This document shows positions 16,436 to 51,370 of a stretch of DNA of 64,000 bases, one piece after another. Under the pieces are notes generated by a model, which was not told the origin of the DNA, searched no databases, and saw only the letters and a program-made list of their open reading frames with translations. The stretch comes from Cordylochernes scorpioides. Taxonomy: Eukaryota > Arthropoda > Arachnida > Pseudoscorpiones > Chernetidae. The stretch is taken from positions 33,935,749 through 33,999,748 of the forward strand of contig CP092865.1 of NCBI GenBank assembly GCA_030710605.1, in the 5' to 3' direction. The translations under genes were made by a program, and so were the position numbers. Each line of letters begins with the position of its first letter. Position 1 is the first letter of the stretch.

Positions 16436-16916
16436 AAAGATGGAAATTTTGCCGGGAGGATATTGATTTAAAGAGACAAAGGTCGCCTCTCCCGTCAAAA
16501 TAGACGTCAAAACTAGACGCCATCTATTGACCGTCACCGCAAACTAGCGGTCTCGGGTCGGTGACAAAGCCACAACACCAGCTTTGGCAAACTGAAAAGC
16601 GTCCACCTAGAGACCATGGTTTCGGGCTAATGGCCCTGGTCAGTCTAGGGCGGACTTTATTCCATTAGATCCACACGGTATCCAATGGAATCTTGACAAT
16701 CTGCCAAAGAGGTGTTTAGCTGGCAAAGTGGCTGGGCCAAATCTATGGCCAAAATATAGATGTAAATTTAGATTGAAATATTTTGGCCATAGATTTGGCC
16801 CAGCCACTTTGCCAGCTAAACACCTCTTTGGCAGATTGTCAAGATTCCATTGGATCCTGTCTGGATCTCATGGAATAAAGTCCGCCCTAGACTGACGAGG
16901 TCCATTAGCCCGAAAT
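16436..16916. repeat. Foldback repeat with 138-bp inverted arms
   Basis: Arms at 16620-16757 and 16778-16915 are reverse complements with a handful of mismatches and a 20-bp centre. The left extension (AAAGATGGAAATTTTGCC and GACGCCATCTATTGACCG) recurs in the related copy at 30053-30375 in opposite orientation, and part of it at 53290-53350. A transcript would fold into a long hairpin. Confidence 0.9.
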
Positions 16917-22078: not shown

Positions 22079-22112
22079 GTAAAGAAGAGAGTCGACAGCA
22101 TTCGACATAGAG

Positions 22113-23279
22113 TCGACACCTAAATTCTTAAACCATATTCAGCATCTACCGGTTATCCCCAACAGTCTATTGATATCTTTTGATGTAATCAATCTATACC
22201 CTAGTCTCCCCCACCCCATCATCATAGAATGCACCATAGAATTCCTCCGGACGCATGGTTACTCTGCAGATATGATAACTAAATTAACCTCCTTAATATC
22301 GATTTGTCTGAACAATAGAATTTTTAATTACGATAAACGTTACTACAGGCAATCTAAAGGTACTCCCATGGGCAGCCCTCTTTCTTCACCACTATCTGAA
22401 ATAGTCATGCGGAAAATAGACAATTCAATAACAGATTATTTCCCAGTAGATATCCTAACTTGGTTTAGATATATAGATGACATATTTTGTATAGTTAAAA
22501 CTGATTCCTTGGACAAAATTCATGCCAAATTAAATTCACTATACCCAGACATACTTTTCACAGTAGAAAAGAAAACAATAGTTCACTAGCCTTTTTAGAT
22601 ATTCAGATTACAAAACATAATTGCAGATACATTACCAACGTTTACTATAAACCCTCTTTCCATCCCTCCTATATACACTACACATCATACTGCCCCCTTA
22701 GGCATAAGATTAACACCGTAAAAACCTTGTCGAAACGCATTTTCACTCACTGTTCTTCGCAAGAATTCAAACAAATAGAAACCCAAAACATAATCGATCT
22801 CCTGATGAACTCTGGTTACCCCAAAAATTTCATACTTAGACACTTTTATAATCCCCAACAGCACCTTAATAGCCAAATTTATAGATCCACATGCACCATC
22901 CCATTCTCTACTCATAGTGTCAACATTGCTAGATTCCGAAAAAATAACTATGGTATCCGTACCTTTTATACCAACACCCCTAAATTAGAAACAATAGTTA
23001 GAAATCCCATTACCAGGAATAGTTTTCCCGTCACCCTACCTTTTTTCACAAACTCCGTATATTCATTGAAATGCTCAAACTGTAATAGCATATACATAGG
23101 AGAAACAGGCAGACGAATCAAGGACAGGATGGACGAACATTACAGAAACATCAGAAATAATGAACCCAAGTCCCTCATCGTACAACATATCAGACAAACA
23201 GGACATTCTTTTAATACATCCCACCCACACGCATATTACTCTAATATCAACAGCAAATTCAAAAGATTGGTCGTCGAGG
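22113..23279 (+). pseudogene. Penelope-like element: reverse transcriptase and GIY-YIG endonuclease, partial
   Basis: The frame begins near PKFLNHIQHLPV and contains SFDVINLYPSLPHP, QSKGTPMGSPLSSPLSE and the catalytic RYIDDIFC of a Penelope-like RT. A frameshift near 22589 leads to a second frame with LKCSNCNSIYIGETGRRI and KDRMDEH, the CxxC plus GIY-YIG endonuclease. The N-terminal RT part is missing and the 3' end falls in the assembly gap. Such elements prime at chromosome ends or nicks. Confidence 0.92.
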
Positions 23280-23379
23280 NNNNNNNNNNNNNNNNNNNNN
23301 NNNNNNNNNNNNNNNNNNNNNNNNNNNNNNNNNNNNNNNNNNNNNNNNNNNNNNNNNNNNNNNNNNNNNNNNNNNNNNN
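23280..23379. other. Assembly gap of 100 N
   Basis: Exactly 100 undetermined bases, the usual placeholder for a gap of unknown size. It truncates the Penelope-like endonuclease frame. Confidence 1.
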
Positions 23380-23403
23380 CTTGAAATTCGGTAAACATTA
23401 ATA

Positions 23404-24465: not shown

Positions 24466-24514
24466 GATTCTCCCTAGTAAACAAATTACCATTAATAAAA
24501 CTCAAGATTTATTA

Positions 24515-24695
24515 ACACAAGTAAAATCCAAATACATAGTGTGTGACGTTTCGGTAACAGCATTGTTACCATCTTCAGACAAAAGTACCGAAGATGGTAA
24601 CAACACTGTTACCAAAACGTTACACACTATTTATTTATTTGGATTTGGTCTTATTACTTTGTGTTTATAATCTATTATCCAAATTGTGCCTTATC
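24515..24695. repeat. Foldback repeat of the hammerhead family
   Basis: Two inverted arms (AAATCCAAATACATAGTGTG then TGACGTTTCGG, and their inverse ending in TTTATTTGGATTTGG) meet at a short centre. The outer tail CTATTATCCAAATTGTGCC is shared with the copies at 32 and 42 kb. The left arm holds an intact hammerhead core. The right arm has lost core bases. Confidence 0.85.
24540..24587 (-). ncRNA. Hammerhead ribozyme motif
   Basis: On the minus strand: stem-I bases TTTTGT, core CTGAAGA, stem II GGTAACA/TGTTACC with loop ATGC, then GAAA, then CGTC with cleavage expected after the C. Core positions C3-U-G-A-N-G-A9 and G12-A-A14 all fit. Stem I is only about 3 bp and stem III is minimal, as in Penelope-type hammerheads, which often work as dimers. 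Activity is untested. Confidence 0.7.
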
Positions 24696-24741
24696 ACTCA
24701 AGATTTATTGAAAAATACCTCTATATTAAAAAAATAATATA

Positions 24742-26072: not shown

Positions 26073-26420
26073 TTAACAAGTTTATTTATAAAAACACAAG
26101 ATAATATGATTTAATGTGCTTATTAAAAGGTATTTTTAATTTTTAACATAAAATAATAACTGGCAAGAAGACACCTCACCTTGGATCTGCAACTAGGTGC
26201 CTTTAATAGGGAGTATATGTAAGTATAGGTCAGGGGGCAATTCTTTATTGAACAATTATCCTGTGTTCCTCCTTGATGCCAATTACATTTTAATAATGTT
26301 TCCTGCTCTCTTAGGGTGTGAGCATCAGCCTGAACTTCTTTTGTCTTTTACATTTTGAGAAGTTGATGGGAAACTTTAGTGCCATTTCACACTTTGGATA
26401 TCCTTAATATTGTAGAACCT

Positions 26421-26580
26421 GATAAAGCACAATTTGGATTTTAGATTATAGATACAAGGAAATAAGACCTAATCTAAATAAATTAATAGTGTGACATTTT
26501 GGTAACAGCGTTGTTACCAAAACATCAGACACTATTAATTTATTTGAATTAGGTCTTATTTTCTTGTATTTATTGTAGAA
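26421..26580. repeat. Foldback repeat of the hammerhead family, degenerate
   Basis: Contains GGTAACAGCGTTGTTACC flanked by inverted AATAGTGTGACATTTTGG arms and the outer AGATTATAGATACAAGG tail. The ribozyme core bases are lost in both arms. Confidence 0.7.
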
Positions 26581-26994
26581 CCTCATCAATTCAAGCAACT
26601 ATAATTCTCTCAACACTTATATCAATTCAACCAATTTTTCAAATCCAAGCATTGCCTCTCTCAAGTTACAATCTGTAATACAAAGTACACTACAATTTAT
26701 TACTTACTATAGTTAACCATTTTATTCAATCTCCCTCTCAAATTGAAAGTTTTGAAAGTGTTTTATTTGTAAAAGTAACATTTGTGCTTAATAAATTTTA
26801 TTTCCTATTTAATCAGCTACAATTCAACATTCCCTTTAAATTTCCCTTTAAATGCCTTAGAAAAAGAAGTTGAAATAATTAGCCAAGTGTCCAGGGATTC
26901 TTACAGCAATCTGTATGGGAACAGAACCCAATCTCCAACATTTGTTGTGTTTTCTTATCACCTATCTTATTTACACACCTGATAACAGTCTTCT

Positions 26995-30375: not shown

Positions 30376-31941
30376 TTATTAAGTAAGATGATTTCATCAC
30401 AACATTCATTTCTATTTTATATATGATAACCAAATATATAATTAAAATGTTTTTAAAATACTTTTGGGTCTAATATATTTTAATTAATAATGGTAATTGA
30501 TACCATTGGGACTTTTTTTTTCTTCTGAATATTTCATGTTCAACGATAGATAAAATTGATAGATTTTTGAACAAAGGAAAAATTACAAATATTTTTTAAA
30601 TCTAAGTGAATGAATACAATGGGAAGAAAACAAATAAATTTAGTAAATATAGAAAAGGATAATTTTTTTTTTGGCTTTTAAGACACCGTTGCTAACAACC
30701 GTTAAGTTAGGCTTAAATTGTTGAGTAAATAATCGTGTGTAGATGTCAGCACCTATATTTACGACACATTTTAACATTTTTAAGCATAGTGCGCATACGC
30801 TAACCTTGGTCACTGTGTTCCGCATGTCAAAGTATCGTATTTTAAGCAATAAATTTGTATTTTTAACAAGAATTATTTAATGTTGTCGAAACTTGAGAAT
30901 CAGTTGAATTATTGATAATGTCCAATTAGCCTTATTAGATGGAATTAACGTTTGCTATTTGATAGGCTGGAGGGCATGAAAATATGGCCGGATTACCGCA
31001 AGTGTTGAATTAACGAGGTTATAATGTATCAACCGAACCACACATTCGAACAATCCTCATTATCATTTGGTACCAATATTTTATGTTGTGTTGCACTTTT
31101 AAAACAATTTGAACCTGAACTTTGAAATTGGAATGTTATATCCAAGTTGTTCTTATAAAAGAAGCTGCTATAACAAGGTTACACTCTTTAACCTTTCCCT
31201 ACCATTGACTTTGTTTCGATTCAATAAACTATTTTAAAATCTTTATTATCTAAAGTGTGTGTGTGTGTGTTATTAGTGTGTTACAAATGTGATAGATAAA
31301 TTCAAGAATATTTGCACAGCATACTTAAACATTAGCCTGTCCCACTTGTATATCAGAACCAAAATACTCTTCTTCTTCTTTCTTATCTCCACTCAATCAT
31401 ATTAGGGTGTCAAGCTTGTAAAGCTTAAGACTTTTGATGGTGTCTGTCGGGATGAGTAGAGTACATCAATGGATGAGTCAATAGAGTCAATAATGTGTTG
31501 GAGTTGCAGGTTGACACTTAGTACATAGTGGGAAAACTTTGCGACCATTCTGTCATTGGCCGTAGATGACCAGACTGGAAATCAACAAAATACTACTTAC
31601 TGTATTTGGTTTTTATCTTATTTTGAAATAATAATAATAATAAAAAAAAATTAAATATTAAAATAGCTCTTATTAAAAAAGCTGTAAAATTCAAACTAAA
31701 ATAGCTACGAGAATGGAATAAAATAGTGTGTCACCTTATTTTAATATTATTAAAAATATCGACATTTTATTTCCTAATGTATAATTTTTCCACATATTTA
31801 AAATTGAACAAATTATTTGACCTATTTTAATTTACTAATGTAGTAGTGGTAGTGACAGCCTTATTAGATACATATGTTGTTGACTCTTCTTTATATATTA
31901 AGAAACGATTTTTGCCAATATTTTGGAATACAAATAAATAA
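30376..31941. other. Non-coding sequence with a LINE/SINE tail piece
   Basis: 31372-31600 (minus) repeats CTTCTTTCTTATCTCCACTC followed by GGGTGTCAAGCTTGTAAAGC and TCAATGGATGAGTCAATA, shared with 49.2 kb. A short GT run is at 31255. The remainder is AT-rich with no supported gene. Confidence 0.5.
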
Positions 31942-31979
31942 TACACAAGGTAATAAGACCAAATCCAAATAAATAAATA

Positions 31980-32026
31980 GTGTGTAACGTTTCGGCAACA
32001 GCGTTGTTACCATCTTCAGACAAAAG
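31980..32026 (-). ncRNA. Hammerhead ribozyme motif, left arm
   Basis: Minus strand: TTTTGT, CTGAAGA, stem II GGTAACA/TGTTGCC with loop ACGC, GAAA, CGTT with cleavage expected after the last T, then ACACAC. One stem II pair is wobble relative to the right arm. Confidence 0.65.
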
Positions 32027-32049
32027 TACTGAATGACTTCATTCACTAC

Positions 32050-32096
32050 TTTTGTCTGAAGATGGCAACAACGCTGTTGCCGAAACGTCACACACT
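32050..32096 (+). ncRNA. Hammerhead ribozyme motif, right arm
   Basis: CTGAAGA at 32056-32062, perfect 7-bp stem II GGCAACA/TGTTGCC with loop ACGC, GAAA at 32082-32085, then CGTC with cleavage expected after 32089. Compared with other copies, stem II carries a paired change (T-A to C-G), a compensatory change that favours a conserved RNA fold. Confidence 0.72.
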
Positions 32097-32327
32097 ATTT
32101 ATTTATTTGGATTTGGTCTTATTACCTTGTGTTTATAATCTATAATCCAAATTGTGCTTCATCAACAAATAAATAATGTGGTATTGTTTCTCATAGATAG
32201 CACAGACCATCCACAACATTCAGTTTCATGGTCAGGAGAAAACTTTTTTTTTTTAAATAAAAGGCAGCTTAACACTAATTTTAGAAACTATGGAGCCCCA
32301 CCTTATAACTGTTTGATGGTGTTTCAG

Positions 32328-32419
32328 GGAGAAAACAACAATGGGTTTGATGTGCTGACCCAGAATCTGAAGTATGGCCAAGTGGCTTCCAAGGAATTGG
32401 CAGACTTCTTCAGAGACAG
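32328..32419 (+). CDS. Fcho: FCHO-like F-BAR protein, first exon in the window
   Basis: FCHO proteins are F-BAR membrane benders that help start clathrin-coated pits at the plasma membrane, recruiting Eps15, intersectin and AP2. This exon encodes [20 protein letters not shown] and [10 protein letters not shown], aligning without gaps to residues just after the N-terminal MAYFVENFW of vertebrate FCHO2 ([20 protein letters not shown]). The acceptor is TTTCAG and the donor AG/GTGCGG, leaving phase 2. The start-codon exon must lie upstream and was not found. The other ten exons follow on this strand in compatible phase. Confidence 0.92.
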
Positions 32420-36472: not shown

Positions 36473-36902
36473 TATATATATATATATAAAATTTTGTTTG
36501 AAAAATTAATATAAAAAGAAGGATCAAGCTCTAGTTTCTATGCACTGAGAACTGAAACTCAGTAGGTCAACAATCAATGTGGTAGATATGTTGAGTCACC
36601 CACCACCACCCGTGGTGAGTCACTCCAGCCAGGTGGGGTTATTGTCTCCCTCTCTCCTCATATTGTGTATTTCACATTGCCCTCTCTATCTTCACATTAG
36701 TTTATTTCATATCCTTATATATACATATTATTTACTGATTGGAGTCCTAAAGAAATTGTTGACTCAACAAGTTATAATTTAATGAGGTCTTTCCTTATTT
36801 TCCCAAGAAGCAACAAAAATATGTAATGTGTTGGTACATGCTTTATTGTTTAAAATTAAAATCTTTAAAATTATTTTTTATCATTTTATCCCATTGTATA
36901 CA

Positions 36903-36995
36903 CAAGGTAATAAGACTAAATCCAAATAAATAGTGTATGACGTTTCAGTAACAACGTTGTTACCATCTTCAGACAAAAGTACTAAATGCCTTATC
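36903..36995 (-). mobile_element. Single-arm hammerhead repeat with 15-bp target duplication
   Basis: ATCCCATTGTATACA occurs immediately before (36888-36902) and after (36996-37010) this 93-bp segment. The segment is one arm of the foldback family, from CAAGGTAATAAGACTAAATC to AAAGTACT plus a short tail. A long, variable target duplication fits insertion by reverse transcription at a nick rather than cut-and-paste. Confidence 0.75.
36935..36982 (-). ncRNA. Hammerhead ribozyme motif
   Basis: Minus strand: TTTTGT, CTGAAGA, stem II GGTAACA/TGTTACT with loop ACGT, GAAA, CGTC with cleavage after the C, then ATACAC. Core bases all fit. Stem II ends in one G-T pair. Confidence 0.68.
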
Positions 36996-37010
36996 ATCCC
37001 ATTGTATACA

Positions 37011-50079: not shown

Positions 50080-50408
50080 CAGTAAAACCCCTCTATAGTG
50101 AACCCCAATGTGACAGAGCTTTTGGTTCACTATAGCCACGGTTTGGCCATTTTTAAAAACTTTTCTAAATTTTTAGACCGTATAATTAAAAAAACAGCCA
50201 TACAAACAGGAAAAGGCAGCCACTTAATAATGGTCACTTTGTTTTAATTCCCTAAATTGACCTATTTCTTTACAGTAATGCTGAATTTCAAAAGAAGTCA
50301 TTTGATAATAGGTTCTTCTTATCATTAGCATACATGTTTATATATAAACCTATGTATTATTTAAAAATTAAGCCGAATCCCTAAGGCAAAACATTATTAA
50401 TTATGACA
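50080..50408. mobile_element. Left half of the CAGTAAAACCCC element
   Basis: CAGTAAAACCCCTCTATAGT with GGTTCACTATAGCCACGG matches the left 330 bp of the complete element at 59394-60874. The right TIR is missing. Confidence 0.85.
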
Positions 50409-50602
50409 TGAAAAAACGAAAGAAAAAATAAAATATAAAAAGATCAGGTGTTGAAATCAAAATAAAAATGGCATATCCTGACCAGGAGCACATGTGCAGA
50501 AGGCAGAGCACCATCTGGTTGAACAGAAATCAACTAAACATTTATTTAGCCTGTTCCCTGATATTTGGCCAACCCAATTTCTTGATAAATCAAGAAAAGC
50601 CA

Positions 50603-50645
50603 TCCACGAACGCGTTTCGCGCTTTTTGGCGCTCGTCAGCGTGGA
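50603..50645 (-). ncRNA. Hammerhead ribozyme motif, short type I form
   Basis: Minus strand: stem I CCACG/CGTGG (5 bp), core CTGACGA, stem II GCGC/GCGC with loop CAAAAA, GAAA, then a two-pair stem III (ACGCGT) and cleavage expected within GTT/CGTGG. Every conserved core base is present. Very short stem III is typical of hammerheads from Penelope-like elements. Confidence 0.8.
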
Positions 50646-50812
50646 GTAGGCTGTACCACTGCGACCAAAAAACGAAGGAAAAAATAAAAGATAAAAGATC
50701 AGGTGTTGAAATCAAAAATAAAAATGGCATATCCTGACCAGGAGCACATGTGCTTTACAGAAGGCAGAGCGCCATCTGGTGGAACAGAAATCAACTAAAC
50801 ATTGATTTAGAC

Positions 50813-51142
50813 CAGTGATTCTCAACCAATGTGCCGCGGTAATTTTGTGTGCCGCGAAATTCTAAAAATGTGCCGCCGAATTTTAGTCATATGATTATGT
50901 TCACGTTTGTATTGGTTTTTCTTTTTTTCTTTTTCATTTTTTTACTTTTTAAAATAACGAAATTAGCAAATTGAATGTTAGAGATGTATATTACTTATAT
51001 TTTGCATAGAAATATTGATACATAATTTGAATTTTCTTGCATTCAAGTTAGCAAAAGTGTGCCGCGAAATTCTAAAATTGTGCCGCCAAATTTTCAAATC
51101 TTTAAAATAATGCCGCAACAAAAAAAAGGTTGAGAATCACTG
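50813..51142. mobile_element. hAT MITE
   Basis: Terminal repeats CAGTGATTCTCAACC and GGTTGAGAATCACTG are flanked by the perfect 8-bp duplication ATTTAGAC (50805-50812, 51143-51150). GTGCCGCGAAATTCTAAAA repeats inside. No transposase. Eight-base duplications and these ends are standard for hAT elements. Confidence 0.95.
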
Positions 51143-51254
51143 ATTTAGACTGTTCACTTATATTTGGTCAACCCAATTTCTTGATAAATCAATTTTGATT
51201 TCAACACCTGATCTTTTTATCTTTTATTTATTTTTTTTTTTTTGCCTTCCATCA

Positions 51255-51370
51255 TAAAAGGTTCACTTTTCAAGGTTCAGTTTTCATCGCCAAAATGATC
51301 CTATCCATCAAATATCTGCTTTCCAGTAAGAGAACACTTCTTCCTTAAAACACTAGGTTTTATAAAGAGG
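51255..51370. mobile_element. Decayed CAGTAGAACC-type MITE next to an exon
   Basis: TTTTCATCGCCAAAATGATC and CCAGTAAGAGAACACTTC match the MITE body seen at 28 kb. It ends about 50 bp before the next FCHO exon. Confidence 0.55.

Follow-up and report, generated by a model that had tools for sequence, protein, structure and literature searches.

How a palindrome that carries a hammerhead-like ribozyme motif in each arm came to stand beside a coding exon is the question raised by this locus of the pseudoscorpion Cordylochernes scorpioides, which lies in a 64-kb window, the whole stretch of DNA that was analysed. The first-pass annotation proposed a palindromic unit that cleaves itself whichever strand is transcribed and that may be a distinct mobile RNA family. 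As judged from sequence comparison, the insertion at 31943-32164 is most likely that of a Penelope-like element (PLE) reduced to its 3′ end. The element itself, a PLE end with a minimal hammerhead, is of a kind already described, and what is new is the evidence bearing on the formation of the palindrome. The origin of head-to-head PLE terminal repeats with a one-sided tail is left open by their describers in the available part of their paper (PMC3846280), and the pseudoscorpion genome holds enough copies to put it to the test.

The palindrome is an inverted repeat of two 94-nt arms (31943-32036 and 32039-32132) that are 97% complementary and stand 2 nt apart, which confirms that hammerhead-like cores lie in a palindrome on opposite strands; the two motifs, described at first as head to head, both point outward. 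The extent initially given, 31942..32160, needs correction: the insertion proper runs from 31943 to 32164, with exact 13-bp target site duplications (TSDs) at its edges. One of its ends is at an inner site, and the other lies 32 nt farther out, the difference being the known PLE "tail", whose family form terminates in CCTTATC. The adjoining FCHO exon was correctly recognised, as it matches FCHO2 (PDB 2v0o, E 4.9e-8), with a Pfam FCH score of 15.1 bits, under the cut-off of 27.8. The features are as follows.

31930 to 31942, no strand: left TSD ACAAATAAATAAT, an exact 13-bp repeat bounding the insertion
31943 to 32036, minus strand: left arm, an antisense-oriented PLE 3′ end from the inner site ACACAAGG, without tail (inverted repeat; alignment to other arms)
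31986 to 32019, minus strand: minimal hammerhead-like motif of the left arm, predicted cut 31986|31985 (GUU) (motif and descriptor match)
32037 to 32038, no strand: copy-specific centre CT, putative cDNA-cDNA junction (34 distinct centres in 35 copies)
32039 to 32164, plus strand: right arm, a sense-oriented PLE 3′ end to the outer site (alignment; all 8 fetched PLE 3′ flanks have the same sequence past the ORF stop)
32056 to 32089, plus strand: minimal hammerhead-like motif of the right arm, predicted cut 32089|32090 (GUC), stem III only ACGU (motif and descriptor match)
32133 to 32164, plus strand: 32-nt tail from the inner to the outer end, on one side only (comparison of copies, TSDs)
32165 to 32177, no strand: right TSD ACAAATAAATAAT, the same exact 13-bp repeat
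32328 to 32419, plus strand: FCHO2-like exon, 92 nt, 163 bp past the insertion (PDB 2v0o match; splice sites by eye)

Both arms carry a hammerhead-like core (CUGANGA ... GAAA ... NUH) together with its stems I and II. The plus strand of the right arm reads CTGAAGA (32056-32062), stem II (32064-32069/32076-32081), GAAA (32082-32085) and CGTC (32086-32089), and the minus strand of the left arm reads CTGAAGA (32019-32013), GAAA (31993-31990) and CGTT (31989-31986). A descriptor written after the motif had been seen, comprising the core, a stem II of at least 6 pairs, a stem I of 3 pairs and a minimal stem III, found 5 matches in the 64 kb, all of the palindrome's family, versus 1 in 20 Mb simulated from the dinucleotide frequencies of the window, both strands being searched. 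The covariance-model check that had been proposed gave no support: no Rfam family reaches its gathering score anywhere in the 64 kb, and between 31700 and 32400 no hammerhead family is among the 18 matches with E up to 10, the best of which are microRNA hairpin models below gathering. We think that this miss may stem from a stem III that is only ACGU. Of 70 arms from 35 copies of the family, taken from the best-scoring and probably younger copies, 62 have an intact core, and none of the 35 copies lacks it in both arms. Non-CpG core sites vary by 0.5% per site and arm versus 1.9% at other non-CpG sites, a figure to which one shared site contributes 29 of 77 changes and which falls to about 1.2% without that site. 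As changes in the core are not random and are fewer than elsewhere, a hammerhead-type motif is still the best reading despite the Rfam miss. An excess of compensatory change in stem II, which the first-pass annotation had looked to, is not apparent, with 35 one-sided changes that keep the pair (28 of them a single shared U-G variant), 12 that break it and 1 that is two-sided across the 70 arms. The compensated change reported for the right arm is real, a C-G pair standing where the family has U-A, but it is unique to that one arm of the 70.

Whether such a unit would cleave itself is a separate matter. The whole element is predicted to fold as one hairpin at -147.7 kcal/mol versus -37.0 for the arms apart, and the ribozyme of each transcript follows its own complement. 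A palindrome transcript that folds as one long hairpin is unlikely to cleave itself, so the proposal of cleavage from either strand does not hold up well for the whole unit. Stem-III-poor hammerhead variants reportedly cleave as dimers (a result attributed to Lunse et al. 2017 and to Cervera and de la Pena 2014). A dimer within the same molecule needs two motifs of the same sense, whereas each strand of the palindrome has one sense and one antisense copy. In the coding PLE, it is plausible that the motif would work.

Hammerhead-like sequence is also found outside this locus. With a looser descriptor, 200 kb elsewhere in the genome gave 10 places versus 0.78 expected by simulation, and six of these form head-to-head pairs, in L049 (the palindrome's family) and in L053 and L065 (other families). 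One of the other families, with a 5-bp stem I, is also present in the window at 50300-51300 (core 50639-50615, minus strand), and its head-to-head pair in L053 (6361-/6646+) has 251-nt inverted arms that are 99% complementary. The palindrome in L065 (5633-6068) belongs to a third family, of the GAAAGCTC type, and has 196-nt arms; read by eye, it has a TSD AAAAAAAAAAGG and a one-sided tail, the same anatomy as 31943-32164. Hammerhead-like cores lie 3.6 kb apart in convergent orientation inside long inverted repeats in L055 (300-4507), and a further hammerhead-like string, CTGACGA-GGTC..AGCCC-GAAA, is present on the plus strand of the window at 16892-16915. A pattern scan of viral contigs for the motif found no match.

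The 200 kb comprise 20 stretches of 10 kb (L048-L067) at round coordinates, chosen without a random generator. In the window itself, exact TSDs of 13-15 bp bound four of the nine places examined, 31943-32164 and the following three, all recognised by sequence comparison and their TSDs.

24500 to 24709, no strand: related head-to-head insertion including 14-bp TSDs, with a different centre
26408 to 26583, no strand: related insertion in the opposite orientation including 13-bp TSDs, its arms joined in stem II
36888 to 37010, no strand: related insertion including 15-bp TSDs, its right cDNA reduced to CCTTATC

All 13 readable paired copies (8 in the window and 5 in the 200 kb elsewhere) combine the inner site at one end with the outer site at the opposite end; two of them, at 47.2k and 59.2k, are diverged or very short. 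The duplications of the paired copies were identified four by script and four by eye from the sequence (L051, L052 twice and L059). In each of the 13 the tail is on a single side and, at 32 nt, falls within the 30-40 nt of the optional PLE tail. The copy at L052 4910-5150 was read from a BLAST coordinate as outer/outer, a reading that was dropped when its TSD gave outer/inner.

Searching the assembly itself (2.62 Gb, 24 contigs) with the palindrome gave 4002 first-look candidates, the best 40 of which were scored and contain 39 other near-full-length palindromes at 90-97% identity. These 39 loci were taken with their flanks, and removal of five segmental-duplication partners (L012, L015, L024, L035 and L036) left the 35 copies and 70 arms used above. 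TSD length varies, as in PLEs: in a search without a shuffle control, 33 of the 40 loci gave a TSD of 9 bp or longer, 3 gave one of 7-8 bp and 4 gave none. The arms are alike in alignment, and the 35 copies have 34 distinct centres with 0-16 inserted bases. A MITE with ends that are like a hammerhead only by coincidence would offer inverted repeats and high copy number, both of which are seen here, yet neither a TSD of fixed length nor a shared internal sequence was found, the tail is one-sided and a PLE ORF is adjacent, and we reject this explanation as having next to no probability.

The same copies bear on whether a palindromic master gave rise to a hairpin transcript that PLE machinery retroposed, its loop being scrambled on each occasion. 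We favoured this at first on the strength of the 39 similar palindromes, many copies of which have the same 94+94 layout, and the arms of one copy do share variants beyond chance, being 96.7% alike within copies versus 95.9% between copies (reached in 0 of 5000 shuffles). The master was dropped after alignment of the copies: the 94+94 layout partly reflects the query, longer-armed copies run on into a leader and a PLE ORF, and there are many arm break-off points and no common centre. A palindromic parent would pass on its centre, so 34 distinct centres in 35 copies, together with varied arm break-offs, argue that each palindrome is made anew, and we regard a master as very unlikely.

The break-off points were read from a second search with the outer right arm and tail (67 bp), in which no palindrome was required; of 536 candidates the best 40 were scored and 34 used, the set omitting the window itself, three presumed segmental duplicates (by position and score) and L031 and L037, which were already included. 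By BLAST coordinates, right arms start from at least 89 nt upstream, the reference edge and hence a lower bound, to 64 nt downstream of the arm start at 31943-32164, and left arms from -20 to 75, giving an overall range of -89 to 75 over the 34 loci. A left arm was found by script in 26 of the 34; of the other eight, L077, L083, L093 and L101 show one by reading, and longer stretches show inverted copies for L082, L083 and L079. Six of the 34 copies are joined within the self-complementary stem II. The predicted hammerhead cut (51|52) is crossed by 52 of 60 arms from this search, 8 stop short and none starts within 49-55. The RNA templates of those 52 arms were thus whole at that point, as a cut at the hammerhead would have shortened the insertions, an observation that bears on the purpose of the ribozyme.

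The identity of the element comes from what lies upstream of the arm. Longer copies extend into a leader and, beyond it, an ORF with GLIYEVKCGKCDQCYVGQTSRTLKERMKIH in its C-terminal portion (L102). In L102 a GIY-YIG-type ORF end lies immediately upstream of the arm's leader, and this ORF end, in sense, is found just upstream in 5 of 12 leader copies. The copies examined are 3′ ends and head-to-head copies, and the PLE enzyme is deduced from the C-terminus of the ORF. The 175-aa piece from L102, which has no Pfam match at 0.01, gave 37,212 first-look candidates in the genome when used as query, and among the best 150, which were scored, open frames reach 860 aa. In 8 of 8 PLE 3′ flanks, hand-chosen from these 150, the leader and arm start shortly past the ORF stop; seven run through the hammerhead and one (L119) breaks off inside it. 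The family member L126 matches PF01541 (GIY-YIG) with 24.3 bits, above the cut-off of 22.6, and the terminal sequence is thus adjoined by a GIY-YIG endonuclease ORF, as in PLEs. The link to Penelope that the first-pass annotation had raised for a mobile element is borne out by this ORF.

The coding copies are themselves arranged in inverted pairs. Among the best 150 protein matches, 22 of 24 neighbouring coding pairs within 6 kb are head to head, as expected of PLEs, with 1 direct and 1 tail to tail, and this sole tail-to-tail pair sits between two insertions. Three long coding palindromes among the 22 pairs (L126-L128), read by eye, obey the same inner/outer end rule. Other PLEs were also met with. 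The window contains one at 22083-23401 (RVT_1 7e-11; GIY-YIG-like end), which is interrupted by a 100-base N run at 23280-23379 and was rejected as a member of the same family, being only 34% alike over 58 aa. In L062 (4550-5420), a long head-to-head palindrome encloses the C-terminal end of yet another PLE, GIY-YIG-like but with a PF01541 score of 19.7 bits, under the cut-off; the weak similarity between the leader and L062 was put down to chance.

A distinct RNA family, spreading as a palindromic hammerhead unit that cleaves itself on either strand, would agree with cores that are intact in most arms and that every copy retains on one side at least. Against it stand the PLE ORF that adjoins the arm, the stability of the full hairpin and the lack of any arm that starts near the predicted cut (0 of 60). 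The arms belong to the 3′ terminus of an abundant, coding PLE and the palindromes arise anew, and we consider such a family highly improbable.

We propose a model for the formation of the palindrome that best fits these observations and to which we give a good deal of credence, in which each of the two cut target strands serves as primer for reverse transcription of PLE RNA, and the resulting pair of cDNAs is joined head to head. The PLE enzyme would cut the target with a stagger of about 13 bp, and both freed 3′ ends would prime reverse transcription on PLE RNA. One cDNA would start at the inner site, about 43 nt beyond the hammerhead cut position, and the other at the outer site, about 75 nt beyond it. 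Both cDNAs would traverse the hammerhead and stop early, and their ends would then be joined, either directly or with a few bases added, so that the RNA 5′ sides meet in the middle of the palindrome. The outcome would be a palindrome of head-to-head arms, tailed at one end only and set between duplicated target sequence, since two cDNAs that are each primed by one strand of a 3′-overhang cut would give a duplication, one antisense arm and one sense arm. The copies have a PLE ORF upstream of the arm, two different ends, duplications, independent centres and an excess of head-to-head pairs, and we infer that the target primed both cDNAs and that end-joining united them. The asymmetry of the ends, the independent centres and the varied truncation of the arms are better accounted for by two target-primed cDNAs than by self-priming or by descent from a palindromic parent.

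Self-priming, in which one cDNA or antisense RNA folds back and copies itself, so that the palindrome derives from a single primed strand, is the reading preferred for rotifer Penelopes by authors who leave the question open (PMC3846280). It would suit the six copies joined in the self-complementary stem II, and it predicts that the truncation points of the two arms correlate, as they do (Spearman 0.71, 26 copies of the tail search). This correlation counts against two cDNAs, and arises partly from the joins at stem II. A fold-back should, however, duplicate the tail, which is single-sided in all 13 paired copies, although two of the 26 (L078 and L097) appear to be outer/outer, which is further evidence against the two-cDNA model. 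Centres with 0-16 inserted bases also speak against self-priming, as does the common A/G variant, a single site picked post hoc, at which 5 of 35 copies differ between their arms versus 2.1% at background sites (P 0.0008), a hint of two RNA molecules from one source. Variants confined to right arms at arm positions 7 and 27 were considered as side-specific inheritance and discarded, both being variants of the query and thus enriched by the search. On balance we hold self-priming to be unlikely, and continue with two target-primed cDNAs.

Extended to the group, this model would have PLEs integrate as a rule by priming from both strands of a staggered cut, with two fixed start sites, one per side, followed by end-joining that exploits the element's short palindromes, stem II included, so that the palindromes of the genome are its footprint; we give this generalisation an even chance. 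Among the titles and abstracts listed by a literature search that covered few subscription journals, none reported two-sided priming as the source of PLE palindromes. Palindromic scars of this sort give clues to PLE integration, and they can be picked up by hairpin-based annotation such as miRNA models and MITE finders. Rfam miRNA families score the palindrome itself at 31982-32093 (mir-2513 73.9 bits, gathering 89); the mir-2513 consensus and the palindrome have GUCUGAAGAUGG in common, and PLE scars may be among the annotated miRNA hairpins.

Among known systems, animal retrozymes are short non-coding repeats with type I hammerheads, whose TSDs, if present, are longer than those of plants (PMC7229834). 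They are direct tandem repeats with canonical hammerheads, whereas the palindrome is an inverted pair with a minimal motif, and it was not classed with them. The motif is closer to the minimal hammerheads without helix III described from PLEs (PMC6155905), as in both the place of stem III is taken by the self-complementary ACGU and a C, which follow GAAA. In PAc, a Poseidon PLE of Anolis, a minimal hammerhead lies at the junction of pLTR and ORF with an ATG at the start of stem II (PMC11167929), and in the palindrome's family CTGAAGATGG likewise reads ATG at the same position. The PAc protein cuts and extends both strands, with an AT-rich target preference, and two internal start sites of reverse transcription bound the tail; the in vitro reactions show no difference in start site between the strands, which tells against inner/outer pairing (PMC11167929). 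PAc is described in tandem arrays, and in the accessible portion of that paper head-to-head genomic copies are not reported as a product of two-strand extension. The closest likeness in overall form is to Pen2a_Av, a Penelope of the rotifer Adineta vaga, where head-to-head inverted pLTRs, the inverted one 37 bp shorter, come with a 9-bp TSD and just one of the two carries a 31-bp tail (PMC3846280), in a paper whose main text does not contain the word hammerhead. Pen2a_Av has few copies, with an ORF enclosed by the pLTRs, whereas the insertion at 31943-32164 and its fellow copies from the same search consist of ends only; what Pen2a_Av and the palindrome share are head-to-head ends, a single-sided tail and a TSD.
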